DNA of 64,000 nucleotides from an uncultured Pelagibacteraceae bacterium (GTDB taxonomy: Bacteria > Pseudomonadota > Alphaproteobacteria > Pelagibacterales > Pelagibacteraceae): positions 1 to 64,000 of the forward strand of contig CACBMB010000004.1 in the NCBI GenBank assembly GCA_902540275.1, in the 5' to 3' direction. Below, piece after piece: positions 29,577 to 35,333 of the stretch. The translations under genes and the position numbers were made by a program. How positions within the stretch are numbered: position 1 is the stretch's first letter; each line of letters opens with the position of its first letter. The notes under the pieces were generated by a model. The model did no database searches and was not told the DNA's origin. It worked only from the letters and a program-made list of their open reading frames with translations.

Positions 29577-29870
29577 TTGGCTATTGTAAAATCAAAGCTT
29601 ATAAAACAACTCTCAAAAAATTTTCCTAATTTTCTTAAAAAAGATATTGAAAAATTTACAGATATTATTTTAAAAGAAATTCAACAATCGCTCCGAAGAG
29701 GTGAGAGAGTTGAAATTAGAGGCTGGGGCACTCTAAGTACAAAAATTCAAAAGGCTTCGATCAGAAGAAATCCAAAAACTGGAGAGAAAATTGCAGTACC
29801 ATCTAAAAAGGTTATTCAGTGGAAAATGAGTAAAGAAATGTTTAAAAAGATTAATAATGAAAAAGAATAA
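29577..29870 (+). CDS. ihfB: Integration host factor beta-like HU-family protein
   Basis: 97 aa HU/IHF family DNA-bending protein. The start is a TTG preceded by an AGAAG sequence. The DNA-binding arm is RRNPKTGEKIAVPSKKVIQWK and the core is RRGERVEIRGWGTLSTK. Position downstream of rpsA is the standard location of ihfB. The C-terminal end overlaps the pyrF start by 14 nt. Confidence 0.92.
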   Translation: MAIVKSKLIKQLSKNFPNFLKKDIEKFTDIILKEIQQSLRRGERVEIRGWGTLSTKIQKASIRRNPKTGEKIAVPSKKVIQWKMSKEMFKKINNEKE

Positions 29871-30531
29871 AATATTTATTGCTTGTGATAGTAAAAAAAT
29901 TTCTAAAATAAAAAAAATAATTAGTGAAACTCAAAATTCAAAAATCAAGGTTGGTTATAAATTTGGATTAGAATTTTTAAACTCTAAGAATGGAAGAAAT
30001 TTTGTATCTAAATTAAAAAATAAGATTATTTTTGCTGATCTTAAAATACACGATATTCCAAATACATGTGTTTCAACAATAAAAGCAATTAAAGATCTAA
30101 ATGTTAATTATTTAACAATGCACATAAGCTCAGGTTTAGATGCTCTGAAGACTTCAAAAAAAGTATCAGGAAAAATAAAAATAATAGGCGTAACAATTCT
30201 TACTTCGTTAGATCATAAATCATTAAAAGAAATAGGATTTGATAAAAATTTAAAAAAATTGGTTTTTCATCAAGCAAGGTTAGCCTCTAAAGCAAAATTA
30301 GACGCAATAGTTTGTAGTGCGCAAGAAGTAGAAATAGTTAAAAAAGTTTTTAAAAAGGAGATAATTACACCTGGAATTAGACTTGATTCAAAAAAAAATG
30401 ATCAAAAAAGAACTTTAACTCCGAAACAAGCTTTTAAAAATGGAAGTGATTGGCTTGTGATAGGAAGACCTATTACTCAAGGTAATATAAAAAAAAACAT
30501 GCAAACATTAATTGATCATTTACGTCAATGA
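29857..30531 (+). CDS. pyrF: Orotidine 5'-phosphate decarboxylase
   Basis: 224 aa TIM-barrel enzyme for the last step of UMP synthesis. The catalytic tetrad region FADLKIHDIPNTC keeps the DxKxxD residues. KVGYKFG and the phosphate-binding IGRPITQ are present, and ITPGIRLDSKKNDQKRTLTP matches the loop between strands 7 and 8. It overlaps ihfB by 14 nt and trpF by 4 nt, placing it in the conserved pyrF-trpFBA series. Confidence 0.94.
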   Translation: MKKNKIFIACDSKKISKIKKIISETQNSKIKVGYKFGLEFLNSKNGRNFVSKLKNKIIFADLKIHDIPNTCVSTIKAIKDLNVNYLTMHISSGLDALKTSKKVSGKIKIIGVTILTSLDHKSLKEIGFDKNLKKLVFHQARLASKAKLDAIVCSAQEVEIVKKVFKKEIITPGIRLDSKKNDQKRTLTPKQAFKNGSDWLVIGRPITQGNIKKNMQTLIDHLRQ

Positions 30532-31145
30532 TCCTTAAGTCAAAAATTTGTGGAGTTTCAGACTCTAAAATATTAGATTTTATAGTTAATCACAAACACC
30601 CACCACAATTTATAGGCTTTATTGTAAATTACCCAAAATCAAAAAGATATGTTGATATTAAAAAATTAAAGGATCTTATGAAAATTAAAAAAAAAAATTC
30701 CTTTTATGTTGCAGTCCTTGTAAATCCAAATCAGTATATTCTAGAGGAAATTAAGGATTTACCGTTTGATTATTATCAACTTTATGATTGTGATCTTTAT
30801 AAAGTAAAATCAATAAAAAAAAAATATAAAAAAAAAATTATTACTGCAATAACTATAAAAGATAAAGGAGACGAAAATAAATATAAAAAGTTTGCTGATG
30901 TAACGGATATTTATTTATTTGATAGTAAGGGTTATGAAAATAGTATGTCATTTGATCACGCACTTATAGAAAATTTAAATTTGAATAAAGAAGTTATGAT
31001 TGCCGGTAACATTCAAATTGACGATACTCTTGAAAATTTAAAAAAAATAGCACATATTATTGATATATCTGGTGGATTAGAAACTGATGGATTAAAAGAT
31101 ATTTCCAAAATAGAAATTTTTTTAAATAAAATGAAAAATTTATAA
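30528..31145 (+). CDS. trpF: Phosphoribosylanthranilate isomerase (divergent)
   Basis: 205 aa TIM-barrel enzyme of tryptophan synthesis. The catalytic Cys is present in SKICGVSD, GFIVNYPKSKRYV keeps the substrate-binding Arg, and the general acid Asp is probably in YLFDSKG. Several otherwise conserved motifs are changed: the GGSGKxFDW loop is reduced to ENSMSFDH, LAGGL reads IAGNI, and DVSSGVE reads DISGGLE. The position between pyrF and trpB is standard. Identity as the trpF orthologue is firm; full catalytic competence is uncertain. Confidence 0.85.
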   Translation: MILKSKICGVSDSKILDFIVNHKHPPQFIGFIVNYPKSKRYVDIKKLKDLMKIKKKNSFYVAVLVNPNQYILEEIKDLPFDYYQLYDCDLYKVKSIKKKYKKKIITAITIKDKGDENKYKKFADVTDIYLFDSKGYENSMSFDHALIENLNLNKEVMIAGNIQIDDTLENLKKIAHIIDISGGLETDGLKDISKIEIFLNKMKNL

Positions 31146-31146
31146 C

Positions 31147-32376
31147 ATGAAATTAAAAAAAAAAGTTCCCTTAATTGATCAACATGACAAATATGGATTT
31201 TGGGGTGGAAAATTTGGTGGAAGCTTTATTCCTGAAACTCTCAAAAAACCAATTGAAGATTTAACAATAAAATTTGAAAAACTAAGAAAAGATAAAAAAT
31301 TCATTAAAAAAAGAGATTTTTATTTTCAGAATTACGTAGGTTCTCCAACATCTTTTGTTAAATTAGAAAATCTATCTAGCTATCTTGGAGGAGCACAGGT
31401 CTGGGCAAAAGTTGTTTCCGAAGCTAATGGTGGAGCTCATAAAATATACAATGCTACCGTTCATGCTTTAATATGTAAGGCCATGGGTAAAAAATACATC
31501 GTTGGTGATACCGGGGCTGGATATGCAGGCAAAATGTTAAGCATGGCTGCTAAAAAATTTGGTCTCAGATGTAAAATTTTTATGGGCGCAAAAGATATTC
31601 AAAGACAAAAACCTAATTGTGATGCGATGAGAAAAAACGGTGCTGAAATTATACCTGTTTATTCTGGAAGCCAAACTCTAGTTGATGCTGTAAGTGAATG
31701 TATGAGATATTGGGTATCGAACTGTGATAATACACATATGTGTGTGGGATCAACAGTTGGGCCAAATATTTTTGTTAAAATTTGTGGTTGGAGTACAGCT
31801 CAAATTTCTAGGGAATTAAAGAATCAATTAATAAAAGAATTTAAAAAAATGCCAAAAATAATTAAACTCATCAATTGTGTAGGAGGCGGTAGTTCTGCTT
31901 ATGGTTTTTGGAGTGAATTTATTGATTATAATAAAAAACAGATTGAATTAATTGGCGTAGAAGCAGGTGGTCCAAAAAATTCAAAATTACATGCTGCACC
32001 TTTAAGTAGAAACGCTAAAATTGGAATTCTCCATGGTGCAGCCTCTTATGTTTGTCAAAATAATGAAGGTCAAATTCACGAAACAGAGTCCATTAGTGCT
32101 GGTCTAGATTATCCTGGAGTAAGTCCAATACATTGTTTTTTAAAAGATACTAAAAGAGCAAGGTATACTTTTGCAACTGATGAAGAAGCTTTAAATGCAT
32201 ATAAGTTAGTAACAAAATTTGAAAAATTAAATCCTAGTTTAGAACCTAGTCATGCCTTTGCAGAGGCAATTAAAATTGCTCCAAAATTAAGTAAAGAGAC
32301 AATTTGTATTGTGAACTCTTGTGGGGATGCAAAAAAAGATAGGGATATATTAAAACAAAGGTTAGGAAAATATTAA
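31147..32376 (+). CDS. trpB: Tryptophan synthase beta chain (divergent active site)
   Basis: 409 aa fold-type II PLP enzyme condensing indole with serine. It aligns along its whole length with TrpB (KFGGSFIPETL, NYVGSPTSF, CVGGGSSAYGF, HETESISAGLDYPGV). The PLP lysine is kept in GGAHKIYN. Relative to Salmonella TrpB, E109 is Asp and Q114/H115 are Tyr/Ala (DTGAGYAG instead of ETGAGQHG), the REDLNHTGAHK loop reads VVSEANGGAHK, K167 is Val, and the PLP-nitrogen Ser377 is Cys. Starts 1 nt after trpF and overlaps trpA by 1 nt. It may have altered kinetics or substrate. Confidence 0.88.
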   Translation: MKLKKKVPLIDQHDKYGFWGGKFGGSFIPETLKKPIEDLTIKFEKLRKDKKFIKKRDFYFQNYVGSPTSFVKLENLSSYLGGAQVWAKVVSEANGGAHKIYNATVHALICKAMGKKYIVGDTGAGYAGKMLSMAAKKFGLRCKIFMGAKDIQRQKPNCDAMRKNGAEIIPVYSGSQTLVDAVSECMRYWVSNCDNTHMCVGSTVGPNIFVKICGWSTAQISRELKNQLIKEFKKMPKIIKLINCVGGGSSAYGFWSEFIDYNKKQIELIGVEAGGPKNSKLHAAPLSRNAKIGILHGAASYVCQNNEGQIHETESISAGLDYPGVSPIHCFLKDTKRARYTFATDEEALNAYKLVTKFEKLNPSLEPSHAFAEAIKIAPKLSKETICIVNSCGDAKKDRDILKQRLGKY

Positions 32377-33179
32377 TGAATAATTCTTTAATTCATCAAA
32401 CATTCAAAATTACAAAAAATGAAAATAGACCAGCTCTACTCACATATACTGTTGCTGGAGATAATACAAAAAAAAAATCATTGGAAATTCTCAAATCAAT
32501 TTCTAATTATGCAGATATTTGTGAATTGGGTTTTCCTCACAACACTCCTATTGCTGATGGCGGTCAGATCCAAACTAGTGCTTACCGGGCTATAAAAAAC
32601 GGAATTAAAATAAATGATGTTTTTTCGATTGTAACTCAATTTAAAAAACTCAAGAAAAACAAACCAATTATTTTGATGGGTTATTATAATATGATTTATC
32701 AATATGATGAAAATAAATTCATTAAAAAATGTCAAAAGTCGAAAGTAGACGGTCTCATAGTTGTAGATTTACCATTTCCTGAAAATAAAACTTTTGCTAA
32801 AAAATGTAAAAAAAAAAATATTAATTTTATTCAACTTATTTCACCCACTACATCAAGAATACGTTTAAAACAAATTATCAAAAATTCTCATGATATGATT
32901 TATTATATTAGTATGCTATCCACAACTGGAGGAAAATTGAAAGTTTCTCCAAAAAAAATATTAGAGGAATATTCAAAAATAAAAAAACAAAATTCATCTA
33001 AAAACGTAGTTATAGGATTCGGAATAACTGAAAAAACCATAAATTCTCTTAAAAAAGCTGACGGATTAGTTGTTGGAAGTGCAATTTGTAAGGAAATAAC
33101 TAACTCAATTAAAAAAAGACAAAATGCTGTCACAAATGTTACTAATGTAGTGAAAAGATTAAAAAATAAAATTAAATGA
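32376..33179 (+). CDS. trpA: Tryptophan synthase alpha chain (divergent)
   Basis: 267 aa TIM barrel that cleaves indole-3-glycerol phosphate. The catalytic Glu49 (CELGFP) and Asp60 (IADGGQIQ) equivalents are present, as are LMGYYN, GLIVVDLP and the phosphate-binding IGFGI...VVGSAI. The S/TDP segment between the catalytic acids is NTP, so the Asp56 that signals to beta-Lys167 is Thr; the partner Lys167 is also lost in TrpB. The loop-6 region reads SMLSTTGG rather than TGITG. Overlaps trpB by 1 nt and accD by 4 nt. Confidence 0.88.
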   Translation: MNNSLIHQTFKITKNENRPALLTYTVAGDNTKKKSLEILKSISNYADICELGFPHNTPIADGGQIQTSAYRAIKNGIKINDVFSIVTQFKKLKKNKPIILMGYYNMIYQYDENKFIKKCQKSKVDGLIVVDLPFPENKTFAKKCKKKNINFIQLISPTTSRIRLKQIIKNSHDMIYYISMLSTTGGKLKVSPKKILEEYSKIKKQNSSKNVVIGFGITEKTINSLKKADGLVVGSAICKEITNSIKKRQNAVTNVTNVVKRLKNKIK

Positions 33180-34111
33180 ACTGGATAACAAAAATAATCA
33201 AAGCAGGGGAAAAAATTAAATCTGCTATCCACAAAAGAGCTACTAAAGAGGATATAGCTAATAGTGATTGGACTTCTTGTTGTAAAGGACCAATTTTAAA
33301 AAAAGATTTAGAGGACAACCTTTGGGTTTGTCCTGAACCTGAGTGCAATAAACATCATCGAATAAGTCCGAAACAAAGATTTGATATCTTGTTTGGAAAA
33401 AATAACTATGAAGTGTTTAAAACACCGATTCCAAAAGATGATCCTTTGAATTGGACTGACTCAAAATCATATAAAGATAGATTAAAAGCTGCTAGAAAAA
33501 AAACTGGACTAGATTGTGGAATGATGGTTGTTAGCGGATCAATCAATAATATTAAAATTACTGCAGTAGCATCAGATTTTGACTTTCTGGGTGCCTCAAT
33601 AGCTGCTGCTGAGGGAGAGGCTTTCTTGTATGGAATTCAACATGCTATTGAAAACCAAACACCCTTTTTATGTGTGAGTGCTGGAGGTGGAATGAGAATG
33701 ATGGAGAGTTTAATTTCTTTATCGCAGATGACCAGAACAACTTTAGCAATTAATGAGTTAAAAAAAAATAATCTTCCTTATTTAGTTTGCATTACAGATC
33801 CTACTGCAGGTGGAATTACAGCATCTTATGCAATGTTAGGAGATATTCATATCGCTGAACCCGGTGCTCTAATAGCTTTTGCAGGAGCTCGTGTGATCCA
33901 AGGAACTGTTAAAGAAGAACTTCCAGAAGGGTTTCAAAAAAGTGAGTATGTTGAAAAAACAGGATTTGTAGACTTAATTGTCGAAAGAAAAAATCTATCA
34001 GAAAAAATTGGAACTTTATTATCGATATTGTTAAAGAAAAATTCTGTTATAAGTTCTGAAGAAAATGAAACTTCAGAAAATAGTCAATCGCTTACAAAAG
34101 CTGCATCCTAA
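33176..34111 (+). CDS. accD: Acetyl-CoA carboxylase carboxyltransferase beta subunit
   Basis: 311 aa, partner of AccA (also here). The carboxyltransferase core is standard: DSKSYKDRL, FDFLGASIAAAEGEAF, VSAGGGMRMMESLISLSQM and ITDPTAGGITASYAMLGD. The N-terminal zinc ribbon is irregular: where CxxC...CxxC is expected it reads WTSCCKGP...VCPEPECNKHH, i.e. adjacent cysteines and then a C-x4-C. The gene overlaps folC by 47 nt. The order trpA-accD-folC is conserved among Alphaproteobacteria. Confidence 0.95.
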   Translation: MNWITKIIKAGEKIKSAIHKRATKEDIANSDWTSCCKGPILKKDLEDNLWVCPEPECNKHHRISPKQRFDILFGKNNYEVFKTPIPKDDPLNWTDSKSYKDRLKAARKKTGLDCGMMVVSGSINNIKITAVASDFDFLGASIAAAEGEAFLYGIQHAIENQTPFLCVSAGGGMRMMESLISLSQMTRTTLAINELKKNNLPYLVCITDPTAGGITASYAMLGDIHIAEPGALIAFAGARVIQGTVKEELPEGFQKSEYVEKTGFVDLIVERKNLSEKIGTLLSILLKKNSVISSEENETSENSQSLTKAAS

Positions 34112-35333
34112 AGAAATTGATCTTAGTTTAGATCGTATAAAACTTCTTTGTGAAAAATTAGGAAATCCGCAAGATGAAATAAATTGTATCCAAGTCTGTG
34201 GTACAAATGGAAAAGGAAGCACAATTTCTTTTTTAAGATCAATTCTTAAAGAGGCTAATATTAAATGTAATATTTATACCTCGCCTCATGTCAAATGTAT
34301 TAATGAAAGATTTATATACAATGATGAAATGATAAATGACGATGATCTTTCGAATTTATTAAATGAAATTGAGGAAACTAATAATGGTCAACCTTTAACA
34401 TATTTTGAGGCTCTTACAGCTGCATTCTTTCATGGATGTAAAAAGTATAAACAGAATCTAGTCATTGCAGAATTTGGTCTATTTGGAAGGGGTGATGCTG
34501 TTAATATTCTAAAAAAAAATCTTTGTAATATAGTGACTTCTTGTAGTGAAGATCACTTAGATTGGTTACCAAAAAATCATAGAACTATTGAAAGAATTAT
34601 CTTCGAAAAAACCTCATCCTTACTCAACTCAAATATAGTAGTTGCAAAACAAAGCTCTGATAAAATTACAGAATGTATTAAAAAGAATATCTCTAAAAAT
34701 AGTGCTAATAAATATTACTTTAAAGAAAATTATAACTTTGTTTTAAAAGAAAATGATTTCTTTTATTATGAAGATAAATATGGAAATTTAAAAATTCCTA
34801 GACCAAATTTAAATGGTCAATTTCAAATCGAAAATGCATCTACAGCTATTGCAACATTAAGAATTTTAGATGATATAAAAATTAAGGACCAACACATAAT
34901 TAATGGAATTCAAAAAGCATATAATATTGCTAGATTGGAGGAGATTAAATCTGGTAAAATTAAAGATCTAGTTAAAAACAATAGACTAATTCTAGATTCA
35001 TCACATAACCCAGGAGGAGCAAAAGTTCTTAATGAATATCTGCAAACTCTAGATTGCAACAAGCATGTAATTATTGGAATGATGGCCAATAAAGATCATA
35101 AAAAATATATATCTTATTTCAAAAATATTTCCTCTTTAACAACAATTGATATTCCTAATCAACCAAACGCGATTAGTGGAAAAGAGTTAAAAGATAAATT
35201 TAAAGATTTCCCTAATGTTCAGTACAAAAAAAACATCAAAGATGCTATTCAATCAATACCTTTAAAAGAAAATGATTTATTATTAATTACAGGTTCTTTG
35301 TATTTGAGTGGAGAATTTTTTAATTTGAATTAA
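34065..35333 (+). CDS. folC: Bifunctional folylpolyglutamate/dihydrofolate synthase
   Basis: 422 aa Mur-ligase-like enzyme that adds glutamate to dihydropteroate and folates. The start at 34065 is inside accD (47-nt overlap) but is required, because residues 5-25 (KIVNRLQKLHPKEIDLSLDR) match the family N-terminus. The P-loop is VCGTNGKGSTISFLRS; EFGLFGRGDAVN and SSHNPGGAK are further family motifs. Its 3' end overlaps convergent trxA by 4 nt. End of the long operon. Confidence 0.95.
   Translation: MKLQKIVNRLQKLHPKEIDLSLDRIKLLCEKLGNPQDEINCIQVCGTNGKGSTISFLRSILKEANIKCNIYTSPHVKCINERFIYNDEMINDDDLSNLLNEIEETNNGQPLTYFEALTAAFFHGCKKYKQNLVIAEFGLFGRGDAVNILKKNLCNIVTSCSEDHLDWLPKNHRTIERIIFEKTSSLLNSNIVVAKQSSDKITECIKKNISKNSANKYYFKENYNFVLKENDFFYYEDKYGNLKIPRPNLNGQFQIENASTAIATLRILDDIKIKDQHIINGIQKAYNIARLEEIKSGKIKDLVKNNRLILDSSHNPGGAKVLNEYLQTLDCNKHVIIGMMANKDHKKYISYFKNISSLTTIDIPNQPNAISGKELKDKFKDFPNVQYKKNIKDAIQSIPLKENDLLLITGSLYLSGEFFNLN

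Follow-up and report, generated by a model that had tools for sequence, protein, structure and literature searches.

Replacement of catalytic-loop and subunit-contact residues in the tryptophan synthase of SAR11 bacteria

As a textbook case of allostery and channelling, tryptophan synthase is described mainly through residues of the Salmonella enzyme that are treated as essential. Few bacterial groups on Earth are as abundant as SAR11. In the Salmonella beta subunit (TrpB), H115 and F306 line the boundary of the indole pocket, E109 stabilises charge on the nitrogen of indole, and in the closed state Q114 is hydrogen-bonded to N145 and R148 (PMC9512447). A 2008 survey of the Sargasso Sea (Genome Biol) assigned trpB genes like that of Pelagibacter ubique to a distinct, early-split trpB_1 cluster with a shared gene order, and argued that the P. 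ubique gene is functional as it is the only copy (PMC2395257). The trpB section of that survey, which deals with the tree and the gene order, is silent on active-site and interface residues, on any accompanying change in the alpha subunit (TrpA) and on replacement of trpBA in place (PMC2395257). A residue-level rewiring of SAR11 TrpB was not found in the open-licence literature, and what is new below is the description of this rewiring, the divergent group itself being known.

The locus studied here lies in a window of 64,000 nucleotides, by which we mean the whole stretch of DNA that was analysed, from a Pelagibacter (SAR11) genome of ~1.2 Mb. All genes of the locus are on the forward strand. 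The trpB gene (positions 31147-32376, 409 aa) and the trpA gene (32376-33179, 267 aa; TIGR00262, 209 bits, above cut-off) overlap by one base in the sequence TAATG, and are preceded by pyrF (29857-30531; NF001273 / TIGR01740) and trpF, encoding phosphoribosylanthranilate isomerase (30528-31145; PF00697, 7e-23), and followed by accD (33176-34111; TIGR00515, 3.6e-81) and folC (34065-35333; TIGR01499, 1.3e-76). The upstream flank of this split trp operon is a himD/IHF-beta-like gene (29577-29870; NCBIfam NF001222, 3.5e-24). The trpFBA-accD-folC context and the open reading frames reported in a first-pass annotation of the window were thus both confirmed, with pyrF as an additional upstream member. 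A trpD gene is present elsewhere in the genome, and the genome search for a second trpB that the annotation had proposed returned none, leaving the gene at 31147-32376 as the sole copy. The encoded TrpB is 98% identical to that of Ca. Pelagibacter ubique strain SCGC AAA795-D22, and trpB groups with the SAR11-like cluster of 2008 and shares its gene order, pyrF-trpFBA-accD-folC.

Residues were numbered by alignment to E. coli TrpB and TrpA (NC_000913.3), and each position was checked at the codon level. In TrpB the position of E109 is occupied by Asp (codon GAT, 31507-31509), that of Q114 by Tyr (31522-31524) and that of H115 by Ala (31525-31527), as the first-pass annotation had claimed. Its central observation, that both partners of the bridge between the subunits are gone together, also stood, with Val at beta K167 (31681-31683) and Thr at alpha D56 (32544-32546). 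As the E. coli alignment is gapless through the key regions of both subunits, these changes are not alignment slips, and shifted equivalents of E109, K167 or D56 are ruled out. The annotation had further listed GGAHK as an altered loop, but this is the normal E. coli sequence, and the real change at this site is from H82 to Asn (31426-31428). Three other replacements had been overlooked, namely N236 by Ser, R379 by Asp, in a segment where S377-G378-R379 reads Cys-Gly-Asp (32320-32328, with the Cys codon at 32320-32322), and R148 by Ala (31624-31626). R148 pairs with Q114 through a hydrogen bond when the enzyme is closed, and as both have been replaced, a second interacting pair has been lost. 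The PLP lysine K87 (31441-31443), R141, N145, D305, E350 and the GGGS phosphate loop are kept in TrpB, as are the catalytic E49 and D60 in TrpA. The term "rewired" used in the annotation therefore has a limit, as neither the closing bridge R141-D305 of the beta subunit nor the catalytic residues of the alpha subunit are affected.

The extent to which these residues vary in ordinary enzymes was assessed in a sample of the 30 best-scoring Pseudomonadota TrpBs, which is biased towards typical members, and here E109, H115, K167, H82, N236 and R379 were each present in 30/30, while alpha D56 was present in 15/15. The constraint at position 114 is looser than that at 109, 115 and 167, with Q in 24/30 and M in 6/30. 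These six canonical TrpBs with M114 (among L203-L232) keep R148. The Cys at position 377, which the first-pass annotation had rightly read, is not unusual, as it occurs in 19/30 of the Pseudomonadota TrpBs. The 26 alphaproteobacterial TrpBs sampled from outside the order had E109, Q114, H115, K167 and alpha D56 without exception. On these counts, chance does not account for the SAR11 changes at 109, 115, 167 and alpha 56.

The TrpB of the window gave a full-length match to TIGR00263, the TrpB1 family, with 389.5 bits (E 1.6e-116) against a curated cut-off of 392.45, which 239 of the 249 sampled Pseudomonadota genomes exceed. Membership of TrpB2 (TIGR01415) was ruled out by a score of 90.8 bits against a cut-off of 518.85; TrpB2 belongs to the common PLP fold family, but appeared as a distant match in the PDB search. 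An AlphaFold2 model built with 35 relatives had a pLDDT of 92.4 and a pTM of 0.92, and its best PDB matches were entries of Pyrococcus furiosus TrpB with TM scores of 0.90-0.92. Compared with TrpB1 as known from Salmonella, E. coli and P. furiosus (5dvz), the SAR11-type protein shares the fold, ~40% identity, K87, the GGGS loop, R141 and D305 with their closing bridge, E350 and the operon link to a trpA that encodes E49 and D60. It differs by E109D, in which the Asp keeps the carboxylate, Q114Y/M, H115A/N/F, H82N, R148A, K167V, N236S and R379D, and by alpha D56T/A/C, so that the inter-subunit K167-D56 bridge is absent (V167, T56). On this likeness, SAR11-type TrpB should work like TrpB1. The catalytic-glutamate region is also altered in engineered TrpBs, such as the tyrosine synthase TmTyrS1 (8egy). 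Those enzymes are laboratory variants selected for other nucleophiles, whereas the Asp of SAR11 is natural and order-wide.

In a maximum-likelihood tree of 72 TrpBs the SAR11-type proteins formed one clade with support of 100/100, which spans both sampled families of the order and has a stem of 1.02 substitutions per site. D109 and V167 are found in all 35 rows of this clade, and the tree indicates that both were in place before the order diversified. Asp109 is present in every SAR11-type sequence readable at that position, except for three frameshifted copies. Y or M stands at position 114, and A, N, F or Q at 115. Apart from the deepest branch, where M114 occurs with R148, every readable SAR11-type sequence has lost both Q114 and R148. 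The residues at 141 and 305 are R and D in 146/146 SAR11-type sequences with data; in TrpA, E49 is kept throughout the alignment and D60 in nearly all sequences. One TrpB (L113, genome G035) scores low, with 47% identity in the search, yet lies beside L126 in the tree; several of its active-site positions read X, which suggests ambiguous assembly bases and not real divergence.

A separate observation concerns another SAR11 genus, here g4, in which 13 of the 397 genomes of the family carry one extra base in the trpB catalytic loop (L190-L202, and L186-L188). The sequence reads GTG GGG GAT ACC (A or C) GGC GC, with the +1 change inside GDT|GAGYAG. The frameshift site is GTGGGGGATACC-AGG-CGC, and the product would be GDTGAG for a shift at ACC-AGG or GIPGAG for a slip on GGGG; the latter alternative would lose residues 109 and 110. 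A perfect GTGGGGGATACCMGGCGC block is common to the 13 genomes, with an all-or-none and patchy distribution; a search allowing two mismatches recovered the same 13 genomes and no intermediates. Both halves of the frameshifted gene are under purifying selection (dN/dS 0.049 and 0.037). A single origin by descent of the 13 genes was rejected on the flanking trpB sequence (AU p = 0.0024), and in one sister pair the divergence is 27-50% across ~45 bases at the block, against ~10% in the rest. These features fit a candidate programmed +1 frameshift, perhaps similar to that of prfB and with GGGGG as a Shine-Dalgarno-like stretch, that is carried on a short cassette spread by recombination. A general reassignment of AGG was ruled out, because this codon has a frequency of 3.9 per 1000 codons in that genus. 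No RNA structure was found at the frameshift, and no convincing match to the block was found in phage records, while a 17-base motif of it also occurs in three viral contigs. An account of this frameshift was not found in the open-licence literature. The gyrB gene of genome G111 is frameshifted at an A8 run (G111:C1, ~38910, in L234), probably by a homopolymer indel or slippage.

The residues at beta 167 and alpha 56 were compared at the 184 loci with both genes. Where residue 167 is K, alpha 56 is D or E (33 loci); where it is V or L, alpha 56 is T, A or C (151 loci), and there were no mixed pairs. This perfect match rests on only two changes in the tree, which leaves a test of significance without power. 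Another trpBA was found in the same place at ten of the fetched SAR11 loci, always swapped as a two-gene unit between unchanged flanks, which comprise accD, together with pyrF and folC where the locus reaches them and trpF where it was detected. The replacements are of three kinds: they have E109, L167 and alpha T56 and a very long branch at L118-L121; have K167 and alpha E56, with D305 lost to Q or N, at L114-L117 and L174; and are an ordinary alphaproteobacterial pair at L173. These modules thus retain differing subsets of the classical allosteric bridges. In the TrpA of L114-L117 and L172 the catalytic D60 is Glu and E49 is kept. The 184/184 pairing and the joint displacement of the two genes point to co-adapted alpha and beta subunits, and exchange in place as a pair argues that the native pair still makes tryptophan; joint swapping is in our view the best sequence evidence for both.

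Very probably, then, the trpBA of the window encodes a working SAR11 tryptophan synthase with a re-engineered catalytic loop and subunit contact. TrpA would cleave indole-glycerol phosphate by means of the normal E49 and D60, and TrpB would join the indole to serine bound to PLP on K87. On this proposal, what was rebuilt on the SAR11 branch is the catalytic loop of the beta subunit (E109D, Q114Y or M, H115A/N/F), along with R148 and the contact between K167 and alpha D56. Polarisation of the indole N-H most likely still depends on a carboxylate, now that of Asp109. A larger residue at 114 together with a smaller one at 115 probably gives the indole pocket a new shape, and for the switch between open and closed states the enzyme would depend on the R141-D305 bridge that it has kept, the K167-D56 bridge between the subunits being absent. 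In the Salmonella enzyme the change E109D is strongly damaging, and activity in SAR11 must therefore be either compensated or low. Retained activity, a reshaped pocket and altered allostery are what we infer from the sequences.

The first-pass annotation had read the locus as co-evolved change in mechanism or function rather than as decay. Streamlined genomes do lose genes, but relaxed selection or pseudogene formation is hardly credible for frames that are intact and conserved across the order, and it was refuted by the dN/dS check that the annotation had suggested. In comparisons with close relatives this ratio was 0.025-0.067 in trpB and 0.04-0.10 in trpA, with synonymous sites close to saturation in the wider pairs. 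Strong purifying selection, order-wide fixation, the sole TrpB and its predicted TrpB fold all argue that SAR11 trpBA is not decaying. The co-evolved part of the annotation's claim holds in the form of the co-adaptation described above. A change of function, by which this TrpB-derived PLP enzyme would serve another nucleophile or amino acid and tryptophan would be made elsewhere or taken up, could account for the long stem branch and for the replacement of E109, H115, Q114, H82, R379 and R148 alike. It is improbable, however, for the only TrpB of a genome that also has trpD, encoded next to trpF and to a TrpA with intact catalytic residues, and displaced in sister genomes by other tryptophan synthase pairs. 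On these grounds the reaction is most likely unchanged.

Over-reading of a divergent sequence, with ordinary drift common among TrpBs as the cause, was one of the conditions under which the annotation would have given up its claim. It describes S377C and GGAHK correctly, and Q114M in part, but is very improbable overall and is refuted within Pseudomonadota, the phylum surveyed, at 109, 115 and 167; E109, H115, K167, H82, N236 and R379 are invariant in the phylum sample, whereas the SAR11-type clade has D109 and V167 throughout. A different matter is the origin of the pair, which may have been acquired from an unsampled lineage by ancient replacement in place, its role unchanged; this concerns origin only and is compatible with a working synthase. 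Other SAR11 genomes carry at least three further kinds of trpBA at exactly this locus, and in the tree the SAR11 clade does not clearly fall within the TrpBs of Alphaproteobacteria. Such an acquisition is on balance unlikely, given that grouping with Alphaproteobacteria was neither supported nor rejected (AU p = 0.51) and that no donor was found outside the order, where the best matches have 44-47% identity and the canonical residues.

For the working synthase that we favour, a broader proposal is held tentatively, at somewhat short of evenly balanced. SAR11 may use a different allosteric scheme, with no inter-subunit salt bridge, Asp for the catalytic Glu and a remodelled indole pocket, and trpBA may be an exchangeable module whose versions carry R141-D305 only, K167-E56 only, or K141-D305 without K167-D56. 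An order-wide version that lacks several residues held to be essential, and is apparently functional, would be a natural experiment on which parts of tryptophan synthase are dispensable, and the alternative trpBA modules at one locus would offer a ready set for testing the co-evolution of the bridge residues.
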